NCBI GenBank assembly: GCA_020847755.1
Contig: JADLBK010000213.1
Span: 1 to 54,713, forward strand
DNA length: 54,713 nt
Origin: Flavobacteriales bacterium
Lineage (GTDB): Bacteria > Bacteroidota > Bacteroidia > Flavobacteriales_F > PHOS-HE28
Reading direction: 5' to 3'
The notes beneath the pieces are model-generated. The model had not been told where the DNA came from, made no database searches, and saw nothing but the letters and a program-made list of their open reading frames with translations. The translations under genes were made by a program, and so were the position numbers. Of this stretch, positions 1-4,182 are shown piece by piece. Within the stretch, counting starts at the first letter, position 1, and each line of letters starts with the position of its first letter.

Positions 1-112
1 AGGGCGTTTCCTTCAGTCAATGGAATATTTACAGTTCCGTTGTTTGATGTCTGAATTAAAAATCTGTATTTGTTGTCTGTCATTTGTTTTATATCTCGTC
101 TTTCTTAAAATT

Positions 113-203
113 ACGCCCAACGGTTCGCAGCTTGCCGCAGCGCCTTTTGTGCGTGGGATCTTTGGTGCGTTGGGAGGCGTTGCGGCAAGGTGCTGTTATG
201 GGT
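113..203 (+). repeat. attC-like imperfect inverted repeat (candidate recombination site)
   Basis: Left arm 126-144 CGCAGCTTGCCGCAGCGCC pairs with right arm 176-194 GGCGTTGCGGCAAGGTGCT (17 of 19 positions pair, one of them wobble). It is bounded by CCCAAC (116-121) and GTTATGGG (195-202), resembling R''/R' boxes, with an unpaired GGTT patch and a 31-nt central loop. Confidence 0.6.
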
Positions 204-430
204 CGGCGGCGTCTTCCGCATTTGGTCCCGCCCATTGCTGCAAGATAGTGGCTTGCTGTCAGTGGACAAGAGGGACTCAGAACCCGGCCCGGCTGTTCGC
301 ATTTGGGGCTTTGAAGGTTAGGCGCAGTGGACACCATTGCGCTCAGGCACTTGTTGGCAACTCGGGGCGATCGTGAATAGCGGTCGAAGGTCGGTCGGTA
401 ACTTGCAACGCTCGACGAAGAGCAATAGAC

Positions 431-1639
431 ATGAACGTACTCGACTCTTTTGCAGGTGCCGGAGGCTTTAGCTTAGGCTTCTCTATGCATCCTGACTATC
501 ACATCGTTGGCGGCATTGAACTGGACGCATGGGCGGCAGAGACGTTTGAGGCAAACCACCCTGGTACCCGAACACTCGTTGGACCGATTGAGAGCTTCAG
601 CGATCGCAAGCTCAGGGCAGCCTTCACTGACCGACCGGACATTATCCTCGGCGGCCCCCCGTGTCAAGGATTCTCCATAGCCAACCGGAAAGCTGGTGAT
701 CCGAAAGACCCTCGGAATAGTCTCTTCCGTGAGTTTGTGCGCCTTGGTCGTGTCTTTGAGCCAGAGGTGATGGTCATGGAGAACGTGCCAAATCTTATCA
801 AGGCCCGGACCCATGGTGGGGAGTTGGTTATAGACATCATACGACGAGAACTTGAGGGTCTGGGCTACCATGTCTACCACACAATTCTGAGTGCAACCGA
901 CTACGGTGTGCCACAGATAAGAAAACGCCTATTTGTGATTGCCTCAGAGCGGCCACTTGACAACCCTTTCCCGACACCAACGCACTATGTAGAAGGCCAA
1001 CAGGCTGTAATAGGAGGAAGAGTGCTGCGCCGGTGTCCTACGCTATGGGATGCAATAAGTGACCTACCGGACATTGAGGCACGGGAAGGAGCGCCCGTCA
1101 TGGAGTACACTATGCCTCCAGCCAACGACTTCCAAAGGGCGATGCGTGATGGCTCGGCACATGTCTACAACCACACCTCAATGAAGCACTCAGCGCGTAT
1201 GGTAGAACGGTTTGCGTCAATGGCGTGGGGAGACTCAACAACCGATGTGCCTGCGCACTTGCGACCACAAAGGAGAAACGGTGGAGGCGAACTGTCGGAT
1301 AAGGCATACGACCAGAATAACAGGCGCATGTCGGCCAACAAGCCGTGCCACACGATCGCCGCTTCGTTCTACGCCAACTTTGTTCATCCGTACAAACACC
1401 GGAACTTCACGCCACGCGAAGGAGCAAGAATCCAAACCTTCCCGGATACCTTCGTCTTCAAGGGTTTGCCAACTGTTGTAAGTCACAAGCTGTTGCAGCG
1501 CGAAGGAAGGCATGACGAGAAGCATCTTTGTCAATACAACCAGATTGGCAACGCCGTGCCGCCATACTTGGCACGAGCAGTTGCGAGCAACCTTTCAGAG
1601 CAACTAATTGAGCAAGTCGCAGATGTACGTGCATGGTGA
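431..1639 (+). CDS. DNA (cytosine-5-)-methyltransferase (Type II R-M)
   Basis: DSFAGAGGFSLGF motif I, GGPPCQGFS motif IV, ENVPN motif VI, and QIGNAVPPYLARAVASNL C-terminal motif X. Confidence 0.97.
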   Translation: MNVLDSFAGAGGFSLGFSMHPDYHIVGGIELDAWAAETFEANHPGTRTLVGPIESFSDRKLRAAFTDRPDIILGGPPCQGFSIANRKAGDPKDPRNSLFREFVRLGRVFEPEVMVMENVPNLIKARTHGGELVIDIIRRELEGLGYHVYHTILSATDYGVPQIRKRLFVIASERPLDNPFPTPTHYVEGQQAVIGGRVLRRCPTLWDAISDLPDIEAREGAPVMEYTMPPANDFQRAMRDGSAHVYNHTSMKHSARMVERFASMAWGDSTTDVPAHLRPQRRNGGGELSDKAYDQNNRRMSANKPCHTIAASFYANFVHPYKHRNFTPREGARIQTFPDTFVFKGLPTVVSHKLLQREGRHDEKHLCQYNQIGNAVPPYLARAVASNLSEQLIEQVADVRAW

Positions 1640-2492
1640 CAACATCTCTAAGAAGGAGACATCGGTTGACAAGTACCGCGACGAAGCCTCCAAGCGATAC
1701 TTGGCAGAAATACGGCTGAAGTATGATGCATGGAAGGCGGCAAACACAGCGCTACAAGGACCATCCAAGGACATACAGTCCGGAGATAGCGAGATCATCG
1801 CCGAGCGCGTTCGACTCTTCAATGACTACAAGGAGTTCATTGAACAGCAACACTACGCTGAACACTTTGACTCACGATCGAACCTCCATTCTTCCGTGTT
1901 GGAAGAGTTCATCTACTACCTGTTCAGTGATCTGGTGAAGTCCTTCTCGCCGAGCGCTCTTGTGGGTAAGGCCCAAGCGTTCAAGGACATTTTCTTTCAC
2001 GCATCCAACTACGCCGATATGGTGCGGAAGCCGAGCACCAAGATCGAGAAGAAAGACCATGACTTCGTGATCGGCATCAACGTTCATTCCAAGATGCACA
2101 CTTCAGGGCATTCGGAAGAGGAGGTCGATGTGTTTCAAATACCAGCCGTCGCCATCGAGTGCAAGACGTATTTGGATAAGACGATGCTTGAAGGCTCATC
2201 CACTTCAGCAGAGCAACTACGCCACAAAAGCCCCAACGCGATGTATATCGTCGTCGCCGAATGGTTGAAGTTGACAGAGAACGTGAACCTTTCAAAGTAC
2301 CGGGTGAACCAGATTTACGTGCTGCGCAAGCAGAAGAACACGGACCGGGAATACAGATACCTTGAAGGCTATCAGAAGAACCCCGTGTATCCCGAAGTTG
2401 TTGAGCACTTGTTCAACAGTGTTCGGCACCATCTAACTACGGACTGGGAAACAGGAACCGTGAACGGCCTTCAGCGCGGCTGGCTCCTTTAG
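1608..2492 (+). CDS. Type II restriction endonuclease, probably Bpu10I/DdeI-like family
   Basis: Overlaps the 3' end of the methyltransferase (TTG 1608, or ATG 1623). PD-(D/E)XK-like EEVDVFQIPAVAIECKTYLDKTMLEG. Family call is from recognition only. Confidence 0.7.
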   Translation: MSKSQMYVHGDNISKKETSVDKYRDEASKRYLAEIRLKYDAWKAANTALQGPSKDIQSGDSEIIAERVRLFNDYKEFIEQQHYAEHFDSRSNLHSSVLEEFIYYLFSDLVKSFSPSALVGKAQAFKDIFFHASNYADMVRKPSTKIEKKDHDFVIGINVHSKMHTSGHSEEEVDVFQIPAVAIECKTYLDKTMLEGSSTSAEQLRHKSPNAMYIVVAEWLKLTENVNLSKYRVNQIYVLRKQKNTDREYRYLEGYQKNPVYPEVVEHLFNSVRHHLTTDWETGTVNGLQRGWLL

Positions 2493-2500
2493 TTAGAGGA

Positions 2501-2617
2501 ATGAACTACATGCACCCACGCCACCGGATGTTACTCGACCTTCTCAAAGGACTGTGGTGGCTGGTGTCCGGGCAGTGGTGGCGCAACCGCCAACGCTGGC
2601 GCAAGACCTATGATTAG
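2501..2617 (+). CDS. Small Trp/Arg-rich ORF (38 aa), hypothetical
   Basis: MNYMHPRHRMLLDLLKGLWWLVSGQWWRNRQRWRKTYD; starts 9 nt after the endonuclease stop, preceded by TTAGAGGA. Confidence 0.35.
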   Translation: MNYMHPRHRMLLDLLKGLWWLVSGQWWRNRQRWRKTYD

Positions 2618-2782
2618 TCAGTCCTTTCCGGCGGAGCCGGTTCTTTCTCTTCAGCCCTCCGAAGTTCTCGGGTGGCATTGGCTGCCGCCCTTTTCTGGGT
2701 TCTCAGCCGGGCCGGGTTCTGTTGTATTTTTCAGAGCGAGGGCTTTGTGTTGGGCGTATTCGCCGCTGACCCATAACTAGTT

Positions 2783-2801
2783 ATTGACGCATTGCGTCAA
2801 T
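2783..2801. repeat. Perfect inverted repeat ATTGACGCA-T-TGCGTCAAT
   Basis: 9-bp arms with a 1-nt spacer, in the gap between the R-M genes and the recombinase 3' end. Confidence 0.85.
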
Positions 2802-2874
2802 TTCTGGACTTTGGAGGAGCTGTCCTATTGCGTATATCCCACCGAACGGGAGGCTAAAGCGCAACTGGTAACCT

Positions 2875-4089
2875 CTACAGGTCCAGGTCATCGAGGGGGC
2901 TGCGGATCTTGCCAAGGGCCTTGGTGCTGACGTGGGTGTAGATCTCGGTGGTTTTACTTGAGCAGTGCCCTAACAGGGCCTGAATGTAGCGCAGGTCGGT
3001 CCCCTTCTCCAAGAGGTGGGTGGCGAAACTGTGCCGGAGGGTATGCACGGTGGCCGGCGTGGCGACACCGGCCTTCTCCCGAGCCCGATGGAAAATGACC
3101 TGGACACTGCGCGGAGAGTATGGGCCGCCATCGGGCCCCTCGAACAGATGGCGCTTCGGCTTGTAGGCGGCCAGATACTCCTCCAAGCTGGCCTGTGCCT
3201 TTCGGCTCAGCAGGGTGATGCGGTCCTTGTTGCCTTTGCCACCCCGAACGATCAACTGCCCGCGTTCCATGGCCAGGTCCTGCCGTTCGAGTCCGATAAG
3301 CTCACTAAGTCGCAGCCCGGCGGAGTAGATGAGCATGAGGATGCACCGGTGTTTCAGGTTGTCCACACTGCGCAAGAGCGAGACCACCTCTTCCTCGCTG
3401 AGCACGGAGGGCAGTTTCCGCTCCTTCCTCGGCCGCTCGATGAAGGTGACCCGCCGCGCATCGCCCACCACGTTCAAGTAGTAGTACCGGATGGCGTTCA
3501 CCGCCTGGTTCAGGGTGCTGTTGCTCACCTTGCGCACGGTGGCCAGGTGATGCTGGAAGGCCTCGATGTCCTCCGTGCGGATGTCGTTCGGGTGCTTCTG
3601 CGGGAAGTGCACGAAGAGTTGCTTCACGGCGCTCTGGTACACCAGGATGCTGCGTGGACTGTAGCGGGCGACCTCCAGTTTGCGCCGCATGGTGGCCAGC
3701 GCATCCGCTTGAACAGCGGACAGCACGGGCGCTGGGTTCGTTGGGCGTGCTGTGGCCGGTGCGGTGGCCGGGTGCTTCGCTCCGCCTTCCACATGGGCCT
3801 TTGGTGCGGGCGGTGTCGCCGATCGGGCGGGTGCGGCGGTTCCACTGTTCTTCCGCAAGCCGTTCATGTCCACCCAGGCCCTGCCCTTGAATGCCCCGAA
3901 AATGGCCTTGATGTGCTCCGGCGCGTTGGGCGTGTACCAGCAGCGGTGGGTCCTGCTCCACCGGGCGCCGGCGTGCTTGGCGGCGGCGATCAGTTCAGCG
4001 TCGTAGGGAAAGTGCAGCGCGATGCAGCGCCGGGCGTGGTGAACCAGGTGCTCCAGCTGCACTGCGCGATCGATGGCCTTTTCGTCCAT
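2875..4089 (-). CDS. Tyrosine recombinase/integrase (Xer/IntI-like) with extra N-terminal domain
   Basis: Catalytic motifs SAGLRLSELIGL, HTLRHSFATHLLEKG, LLGHCSSKTTEIYTHVS. C-terminus KIRSPLDDLDL resembles IntI ...RSPLDAL. N-terminal ARWSRTHRCWYTPNAPEHIKAIF module. Confidence 0.95.
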   Translation of the reverse strand: MDEKAIDRAVQLEHLVHHARRCIALHFPYDAELIAAAKHAGARWSRTHRCWYTPNAPEHIKAIFGAFKGRAWVDMNGLRKNSGTAAPARSATPPAPKAHVEGGAKHPATAPATARPTNPAPVLSAVQADALATMRRKLEVARYSPRSILVYQSAVKQLFVHFPQKHPNDIRTEDIEAFQHHLATVRKVSNSTLNQAVNAIRYYYLNVVGDARRVTFIERPRKERKLPSVLSEEEVVSLLRSVDNLKHRCILMLIYSAGLRLSELIGLERQDLAMERGQLIVRGGKGNKDRITLLSRKAQASLEEYLAAYKPKRHLFEGPDGGPYSPRSVQVIFHRAREKAGVATPATVHTLRHSFATHLLEKGTDLRYIQALLGHCSSKTTEIYTHVSTKALGKIRSPLDDLDL

Positions 4090-4182
4090 GGCGGAAAGGC
4101 AAGATAACGGCGCACGGGACTCCTCCGTGGTCGCGCCAGGGTGCGGAACGAAGCCGCCGGGCGGGTGTCCTTGCCCCGTGCC

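Follow-up and report, generated by a model that had tools for sequence, protein, structure and literature searches.

A predicted chromosomal integron with an I2-less integrase, sister to IntI, in a Flavobacteriales bacterium and its Bacteroidia relatives

Genome surveys have recognised integrons and their integrase, IntI, by I2, the IntI-specific additional domain (PMC2426708, PMC8352920, PMC9668308), and within Bacteroidetes proper IntegronFinder 2.0 lists a single complete integron, that of Salinibacter (PMC9024848). The accessible text of a recombinase classification describes an "integron-like" subgroup of simple tyrosine recombinases in which this insertion is not fully conserved, calls it essential for integron function, and gives no cassettes, attI or attC for the members that lack it (PMC8138268). 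These members are probably proteins of the family described here, which is exemplified by a tyrosine recombinase in a 54,713-nucleotide (nt) stretch of DNA from a Flavobacteriales bacterium (Bacteroidia; Flavobacteriales_F; PHOS-HE28; assembly GCA_020847755.1, contig JADLBK010000213.1, positions 1-54,713, forward strand), hereafter the window. The window very probably holds the first part of a chromosomal integron with an I2-less integrase that belongs to a sister clade of classical IntI and carries an extra N-terminal domain. I2-less integrons in this bacterium and in many of its Bacteroidia relatives appear to have been overlooked so far: the open-access literature searched, which included hardly any preprints and few papers behind subscription, held no description of the system, which is not proof of novelty.

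The genome is assembled in 264 contigs and the window begins at base 1 of its contig, so that the array is truncated on the left. Judged by its sequence, the window opens within a genuine integron-like cassette array, with restriction-modification (R-M) genes as cargo and the following predicted features (handles beginning with L denote loci, those with G genomes):

1..120, minus strand: first part of cassette 2 (TTGGGCGTAA...), truncated at the contig end, with an open reading frame (ORF; MTDNKYRFLIQTSNNGTVNIPLTEGNA...) that runs off the end from an ATG at 83
115..204, minus strand: attC-like site of cassette 1, with R'' at 204-195 (GACCCATAAC), R' core at 121-115 (GTTGGGC) and crossover G121|T120
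121..348, minus strand: 3' shell of cassette 1 including the attC-like site, 94-96% identical to cassettes in L053 and L054
121..2776, minus strand: cassette 1, 2656 bp, first bases TTATGGGTC, start and own R'' complementary at 10/10 positions; L053 has the same ends around other cargo
431..1639, plus strand: C5 cytosine DNA methyltransferase, cargo, antisense to the array (PF00145, E 2.7e-59; PADLOC MTase_II, 2.8e-120)
~1623..2492, plus strand: Bpu10I-family type II restriction endonuclease, cargo, its ATG at 1623 overlapping the methyltransferase end (PF09549, E 4.7e-29)
2620..2776, minus strand: 5' shell of cassette 1, ~157 bp, 95% identical to the R-M cassette of L053, in another species
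2777..2865, minus strand: attI-like site and leader, ending AATAACTAG|TT, crossover G2777|T2776 (genus leader alignment and class-wide consensus)
2875..4089, minus strand: tyrosine recombinase, 404 amino acids (phage-integrase catalytic domain PF00589, 1.8e-38; SAM_4, PF13495, 2.2e-19; TIGR02249, 213.6 bits; AlphaFold 2 model)
3850..4068, minus strand: N-terminal domain of the recombinase, W-S...C-W-Y motif, DUF5710/HARP-like (conserved W/S, weak family and fold matches)

A preliminary description of this DNA had named an R-M pair, an inverted attC-like structure and a tyrosine recombinase, and each proved real. The pair is the methyltransferase and endonuclease listed above; the inverted structure reads on the minus strand, its boundaries corrected from 113-203 to 115-204; and the recombinase has all catalytic residues, no IntI insertion and an extra N-terminal module, as had been claimed. 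The R-M genes do lie between fold and recombinase, as also stated there, though more precisely they are the antisense cargo of cassette 1, with the attI-like site separating them from the recombinase.

In integron arrays, the R'' at the far end of a cassette must pair with the bases that follow the crossover G at its start once the cassette is circular. Immediately past the recombinase stop, the minus-strand sequence is ...AATAACTAG|TTATGGGTC..., and the GACCCATAAC that opens the fold at 204-115 complements the cassette 1 start at all ten positions. This 10-mer occurs once per strand in the window, at 195 (+) and 2777 (-), both of them the predicted places. Folded in its array context, the cassette 1 site is moderately non-random (z -2.17; 8/200 shuffles equally good), whereas joined to the first bases of its own cassette, as in the excised circle, it reaches -31 kcal/mol (z -8.86; 0/200 shuffles). 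Complementarity, uniqueness and the fold with its own start therefore delimit cassette 1 as 2776-121 and set the start of cassette 2 at 120. The R'' and R' found together in the array need not match, because R' there belongs to the next cassette. Genomes G005 and G040 carry copies of the window's site in which similarity breaks at G|TT. A DNA search for the exact site in its own genome and order returned only two close copies, because attC-like sites diverge quickly; no Rfam family matched the structure, and a pattern scan of viral contigs for such sites found nothing. A strict scan for RYYYAAC/GTTRRRY with a fixed stem recovered few sites, and a cassette-walking test was used in its place.

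The genus (45 genomes) encodes orthologues of the recombinase at ~60-79% identity in about half of its genomes, its XerC/XerD homologues being separate genes. When 20 genus loci are aligned at the recombinase stop, most leaders are conserved up to GTT and followed by unrelated sequence, and two main leader types pair with two C-terminus types. An identical first-cassette start stands behind differing recombinase types in the window and L053, in L054 and L071, and in L061 and L064. The conserved leader ending in G|TT lies mostly 36-250 bp 3' of the recombinase gene, as expected of an integron attI, and its pre-crossover consensus, ATA.ACAAA.G|TT, holds class-wide. Cassette walking yielded arrays of 1-5 cassettes in the genus and, in other families, arrays in most loci with enough downstream sequence, up to seven cassettes long in one complete genome. 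In the first locus set, 26 of 38 loci were array-positive, versus 5/760 shuffles; in a named set of 80 loci (Gillisia, Arenibacter, Algoriphagus, Maribacter, Flavobacterium, Spirosoma and uncultured Bacteroidota), 29 of the 56 with enough sequence were, versus 2/280. In total, 109 tandem cassettes were walked at 53 loci in the genus and many Bacteroidia families, starting at G|TT just 3' of the recombinase; the further folded sites sought beside recombinase orthologues are thus present both within the genus and well beyond it. Many contigs stop within a few hundred bases of the recombinase 3' end, as repeats there would cause. The complete genome G002 holds two differing integrase copies ~145 kb apart (G002:C1:455533-456744 and 600450-601658; 65% and 79% identical to that of the window), with different leader types. 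In L053, L058, L062 and L067 a conserved array end, CCGAAT(G/T)ACCAC, lies just past the last walked cassette, after a mini-cassette-like inverted repeat, and is perhaps the fixed distal end of the platform.

The walked cassettes have a median length of 939 bp and sites of median 128 nt (49-178). Complementarity between R'' and cassette start is 10/10 in 64, 9/10 in 43 and 8/10 in one (n = 108). The arms of a site complement each other with a score of 37.1, versus 18.1 for swapped arms, and a mere 0.8% of swapped pairs reach the own-arm median. Every one of the 109 sites folds much more stably than its shuffles: bottom-strand folds have a median z of -5.54, with 97% below -3, against -0.15 for equal-length controls from cassette bodies. 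In 100 cassettes the longest ORF points along the array and in six, the window's R-M cassette among them, opposite to it, while three have none; the ORF starts a median of 30 nt into the cassette. Sites from different loci are ~80-95% identical while cassette bodies differ, and the inter-locus homology most often stops 2-3 nt beyond the crossover G. Exact duplicate cassettes occur inside arrays (L057, fourth and fifth, 945 bp; L177, first and fourth, 773 bp), which, together with the shared cassette starts on different backbones, implies recent cassette movement.

The window's recombinase consists of the N-terminal domain (residues ~8-79), a disordered linker (81-117) and a core-binding and catalytic part (125-404), and its model has a predicted local distance difference test (pLDDT) value of 86. 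Its closest solved chains are VchIntIA (2a3v) and XerA, and the VchIntIA alignment skips from 207 to 248, exactly at the position of I2. I2 is missing in all 115 family proteins examined. The interval from box-I GKG to HxLRH has a median of 63 residues in the family (89 proteins at 63, 19 at 64), compared to 105 in IntI (n = 32) and 71 in Xer (n = 4). The catalytic residues are intact in at least 112 of the 115; interrupted members also exist, G040 having a TGA and G033:C2 being split. The window protein scores below the cut-off of TIGR02249, the IntI model (265 bits), and above that of NF040815, recomb_XerA_Arch, a mixed XerA/integron model from NCBIfam (226 versus 220 bits). Since it lacks the I2 by which IntI is defined, the enzyme is not named IntI and is assigned to an I2-less sister family.

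A tree made with I2 columns excluded, and with archaeal XerA not among its rows, recovers the family as one clade (91/87) and IntI as another (100/99), their union being set apart (94/90) from XerC/D and from an IS91-linked Rhizobium recombinase. Chromosomal XerC and XerD form a separate clade (100/99), in which the window's recombinase does not nest; it groups instead with IntI, as its sister. When extra long-branch rows are added, IntI nests among the family members. The Rhizobium protein (L115:5007-5870), an outgroup to family plus IntI, is a plasmid recombinase of 40% identity whose gene is directly followed by that of an IS91-family transposase.

In a sample of the class, relatives at E 1e-40 or better occur in 217 of 394 good genomes and 120 of 198 genera. 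Classical IntI above the TIGR02249 cut-off is found in 107/393 genomes of the phylum, one of these in class Bacteroidia, and in none of 44 genus genomes; 0/14 named control genomes matched in the genus search, for which the phylum search with its 107 passing genomes is taken as positive control. By virtue of this opposite distribution, class versus rest of phylum, IntI and the I2-less family look complementary. Family members also appear in metagenome-assembled genomes labelled Rhodobacteraceae, Nitrospirae, Thermodesulfovibrionales, Undinarchaeales, Armatimonadetes and WOR-3 (L154, L158, L190, L191, L195, L198, L218, L223), through either binning error or inter-phylum transfer.

Compared with classical integrons, including sedentary chromosomal ones, the system shares an attI beside the integrase gene, the G|TT crossover, R''/R' and L''/L' pairs, an unpaired spacer and a variable loop, together with cassettes of about one ORF in a single orientation and of mostly unknown cargo. 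It differs in its integrase, which lacks I2, scores under the TIGR02249 cut-off and has an extra N-terminal domain. Unlike the class 1 layout, attI here lies 3' of the integrase gene, so that the array runs in the reading direction of that gene. The archaeal and inverted bacterial integrons come closest in this respect, attI having been reported immediately downstream of intI in Archaea, but their IntIs keep the additional domain (PMC9668308). Archaeal XerA and the NF040815 proteins, like the family, have a catalytic core that aligns without the insertion; the family is distinguished from them by attI, cassettes, the N-terminal domain and its position in the tree, with IntI and not with XerC/D among the rows sampled. 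In a comparison with integrases of phages and integrative and conjugative elements, no att structure of the element type, with att sites flanking one element, was seen. The locus and its relatives thus show each platform-level feature examined: tandem cassettes with imperfect-palindrome attC-like sites, R''/R' cores and G|TT, complementarity of start and R'', and single ORFs in one orientation. In its anatomy, boundaries and distribution the system behaves like an integron; that this enzyme is the catalyst, that it acts on a folded single strand and that the N-terminal domain has a part in this are inferred.

The N-terminal domain with its W-S...W motif is present in nearly all family members and in no IntI or Xer, its W and S being conserved in more than 90% of alignment rows. 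In the AlphaFold model it is confident, separate and tethered to the remainder by the disordered linker, and its elements follow in the order strand-strand-helix-strand-strand-helix-strand. HARP, the substrate-recognition domain of SMARCAL1, likewise has a fold of five strands and two helices (PMC4666394). Profile matches are sparse: PF18974 matches 5/33 rows, the window's row falling under its cut-off, and HARP (PF07443) matches 1/33 (E 0.0021). The fold match to SMARCAL1 HARP (4o66) is weak (rank 14, probability 0.54, TMt 0.52, E 0.24). These weak matches are no more than suggestive of a relationship to DUF5710 and HARP; the domain might bind DNA, and that it replaces I2 is put forward as a hypothesis.

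In the mechanism envisaged, the recombinase would bind the attI-like site downstream of its own gene as double-stranded DNA, and also the bottom strand of an attC-like site folded as an imperfect hairpin. In this hairpin R'' would pair with R' and L'' with L', the L pair containing an internal mismatch or bulge; an asymmetric spacer would stay unpaired, and the terminal loop would vary. A single strand exchange at G|TT would join a circular cassette to attI, such that the newest cassette adjoins the integrase and its ORF begins ~30 nt from the junction. Recombination of one attC-like site with another would excise cassettes, and repeated capture would build the array. A more tentative proposal is that Bacteroidia commonly carry an integron lineage that is independent of I2 and sister to the entire classical group. 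Such a lineage would capture its cassettes as folded single strands with a different structural device, plausibly the HARP/DUF5710-like N-terminal domain acting as a DNA-structure-binding module. If so, I2 was not the founding innovation of integrons, and attI and attC were already used by the common ancestor. The family makes the evolutionary question testable: either I2 is needed for single-strand cassette recombination, or a sister lineage found another solution. Should the family work as its sequences suggest, a large reservoir of cassettes has gone unnoticed, among them R-M systems and genes related to resistance determinants.

Several observations weigh against the integron reading as a whole. 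I2 is described as necessary for cassette capture and as absent from all other proteins (PMC7790495), so that its absence speaks against single-strand recombination by the known mechanism. The family's sister position to IntI is moderately supported (91/87 and 94/90). No array could be walked at several loci with ~10 kb downstream (e.g., L164, L172, L199), some of which show attC-like copies by blast. Lastly, the walker demands R'' complementarity and a stem, whereby the fold statistics are partly conditioned, an effect reduced, though not abolished, by the shuffle, swapped-arm and body controls.

An unlikely alternative is that cassettes are exchanged as ordinary double-stranded DNA, by two strand exchanges between attI and attC or between two attC, with the palindromes merely pairs of binding sites and the system ancestral to integrons. 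The domain missing from all 115 proteins is the one that in IntI recognises extra-helical bases and prevents the second exchange, and IntI itself still has a double-strand activity considered ancestral (PMC7790495). Nevertheless, R'' complements the cassette start at 9-10 of 10 nt in 107/108 cassettes, the sites fold strongly, and own arms pair better than swapped ones, all marks expected of selection for a hairpin; moreover, arms up to 178 nt apart are unlike compact double-strand sites. Far less probable still is that another enzyme recombines the arrays, either classical IntI acting from elsewhere in the genome or, as in dif-module elements, the host's XerC/D, and that the adjoining recombinase is incidental. 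Many phyla are known to contain CALIN arrays that lack IntI (PMC9668308), and the genus has XerC and XerD homologues. An attI-like leader, however, lies directly 3' of this very gene and ends where the cassettes start, and IntI acting in trans is unlikely because classical IntI is absent from the 44 genus genomes searched and nearly so from the class. Nor are G|TT cores with imperfect palindromes of 49-178 nt dif-like. It is equally improbable that the integron is a degenerate or fossil form whose integrase, after a secondary loss of I2, can no longer recombine attC: the missing domain and the interrupted members would fit, but the catalytic residues are overwhelmingly intact, the family is widespread and diverse, and exact duplicates and shared cassette starts on differing backbones point to movement.

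The cargo itself is varied. The suggestion in the preliminary description that a Bacteroidota recombinase outside classical IntI may mobilise defence cassettes through attC-like sites gains support, with the qualification that defence genes are a minority of the cargo: C5 methyltransferases account for three of 100 cassette ORFs, and most cargo matches no family. Recognisable products include two ABC-F ribosomal-protection-like proteins, a LinB-like nucleotidyltransferase domain, a beta-lactamase-fold protein and a caspase-like peptidase. The dihydropteroate synthase encoded by cassette 1 of L063 (G023:C32; ORF 1386-2201, minus) resembles Sul3 (352 bits, cut-off 475), also matches Sul1 and Sul2, and may be related to mobile genes for sulfonamide resistance. 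The R-M cassettes of different species (window, L053, L054, L071) have common 5' and 3' shells (~157 and 228 bp) around differing, mostly antisense R-M genes of Bpu10I type, TdeIII type or with other C5 methyltransferases. The third cassette of L071 (8230-9534) carries as cargo a second, diverged tyrosine recombinase of 435 amino acids and 33% identity.

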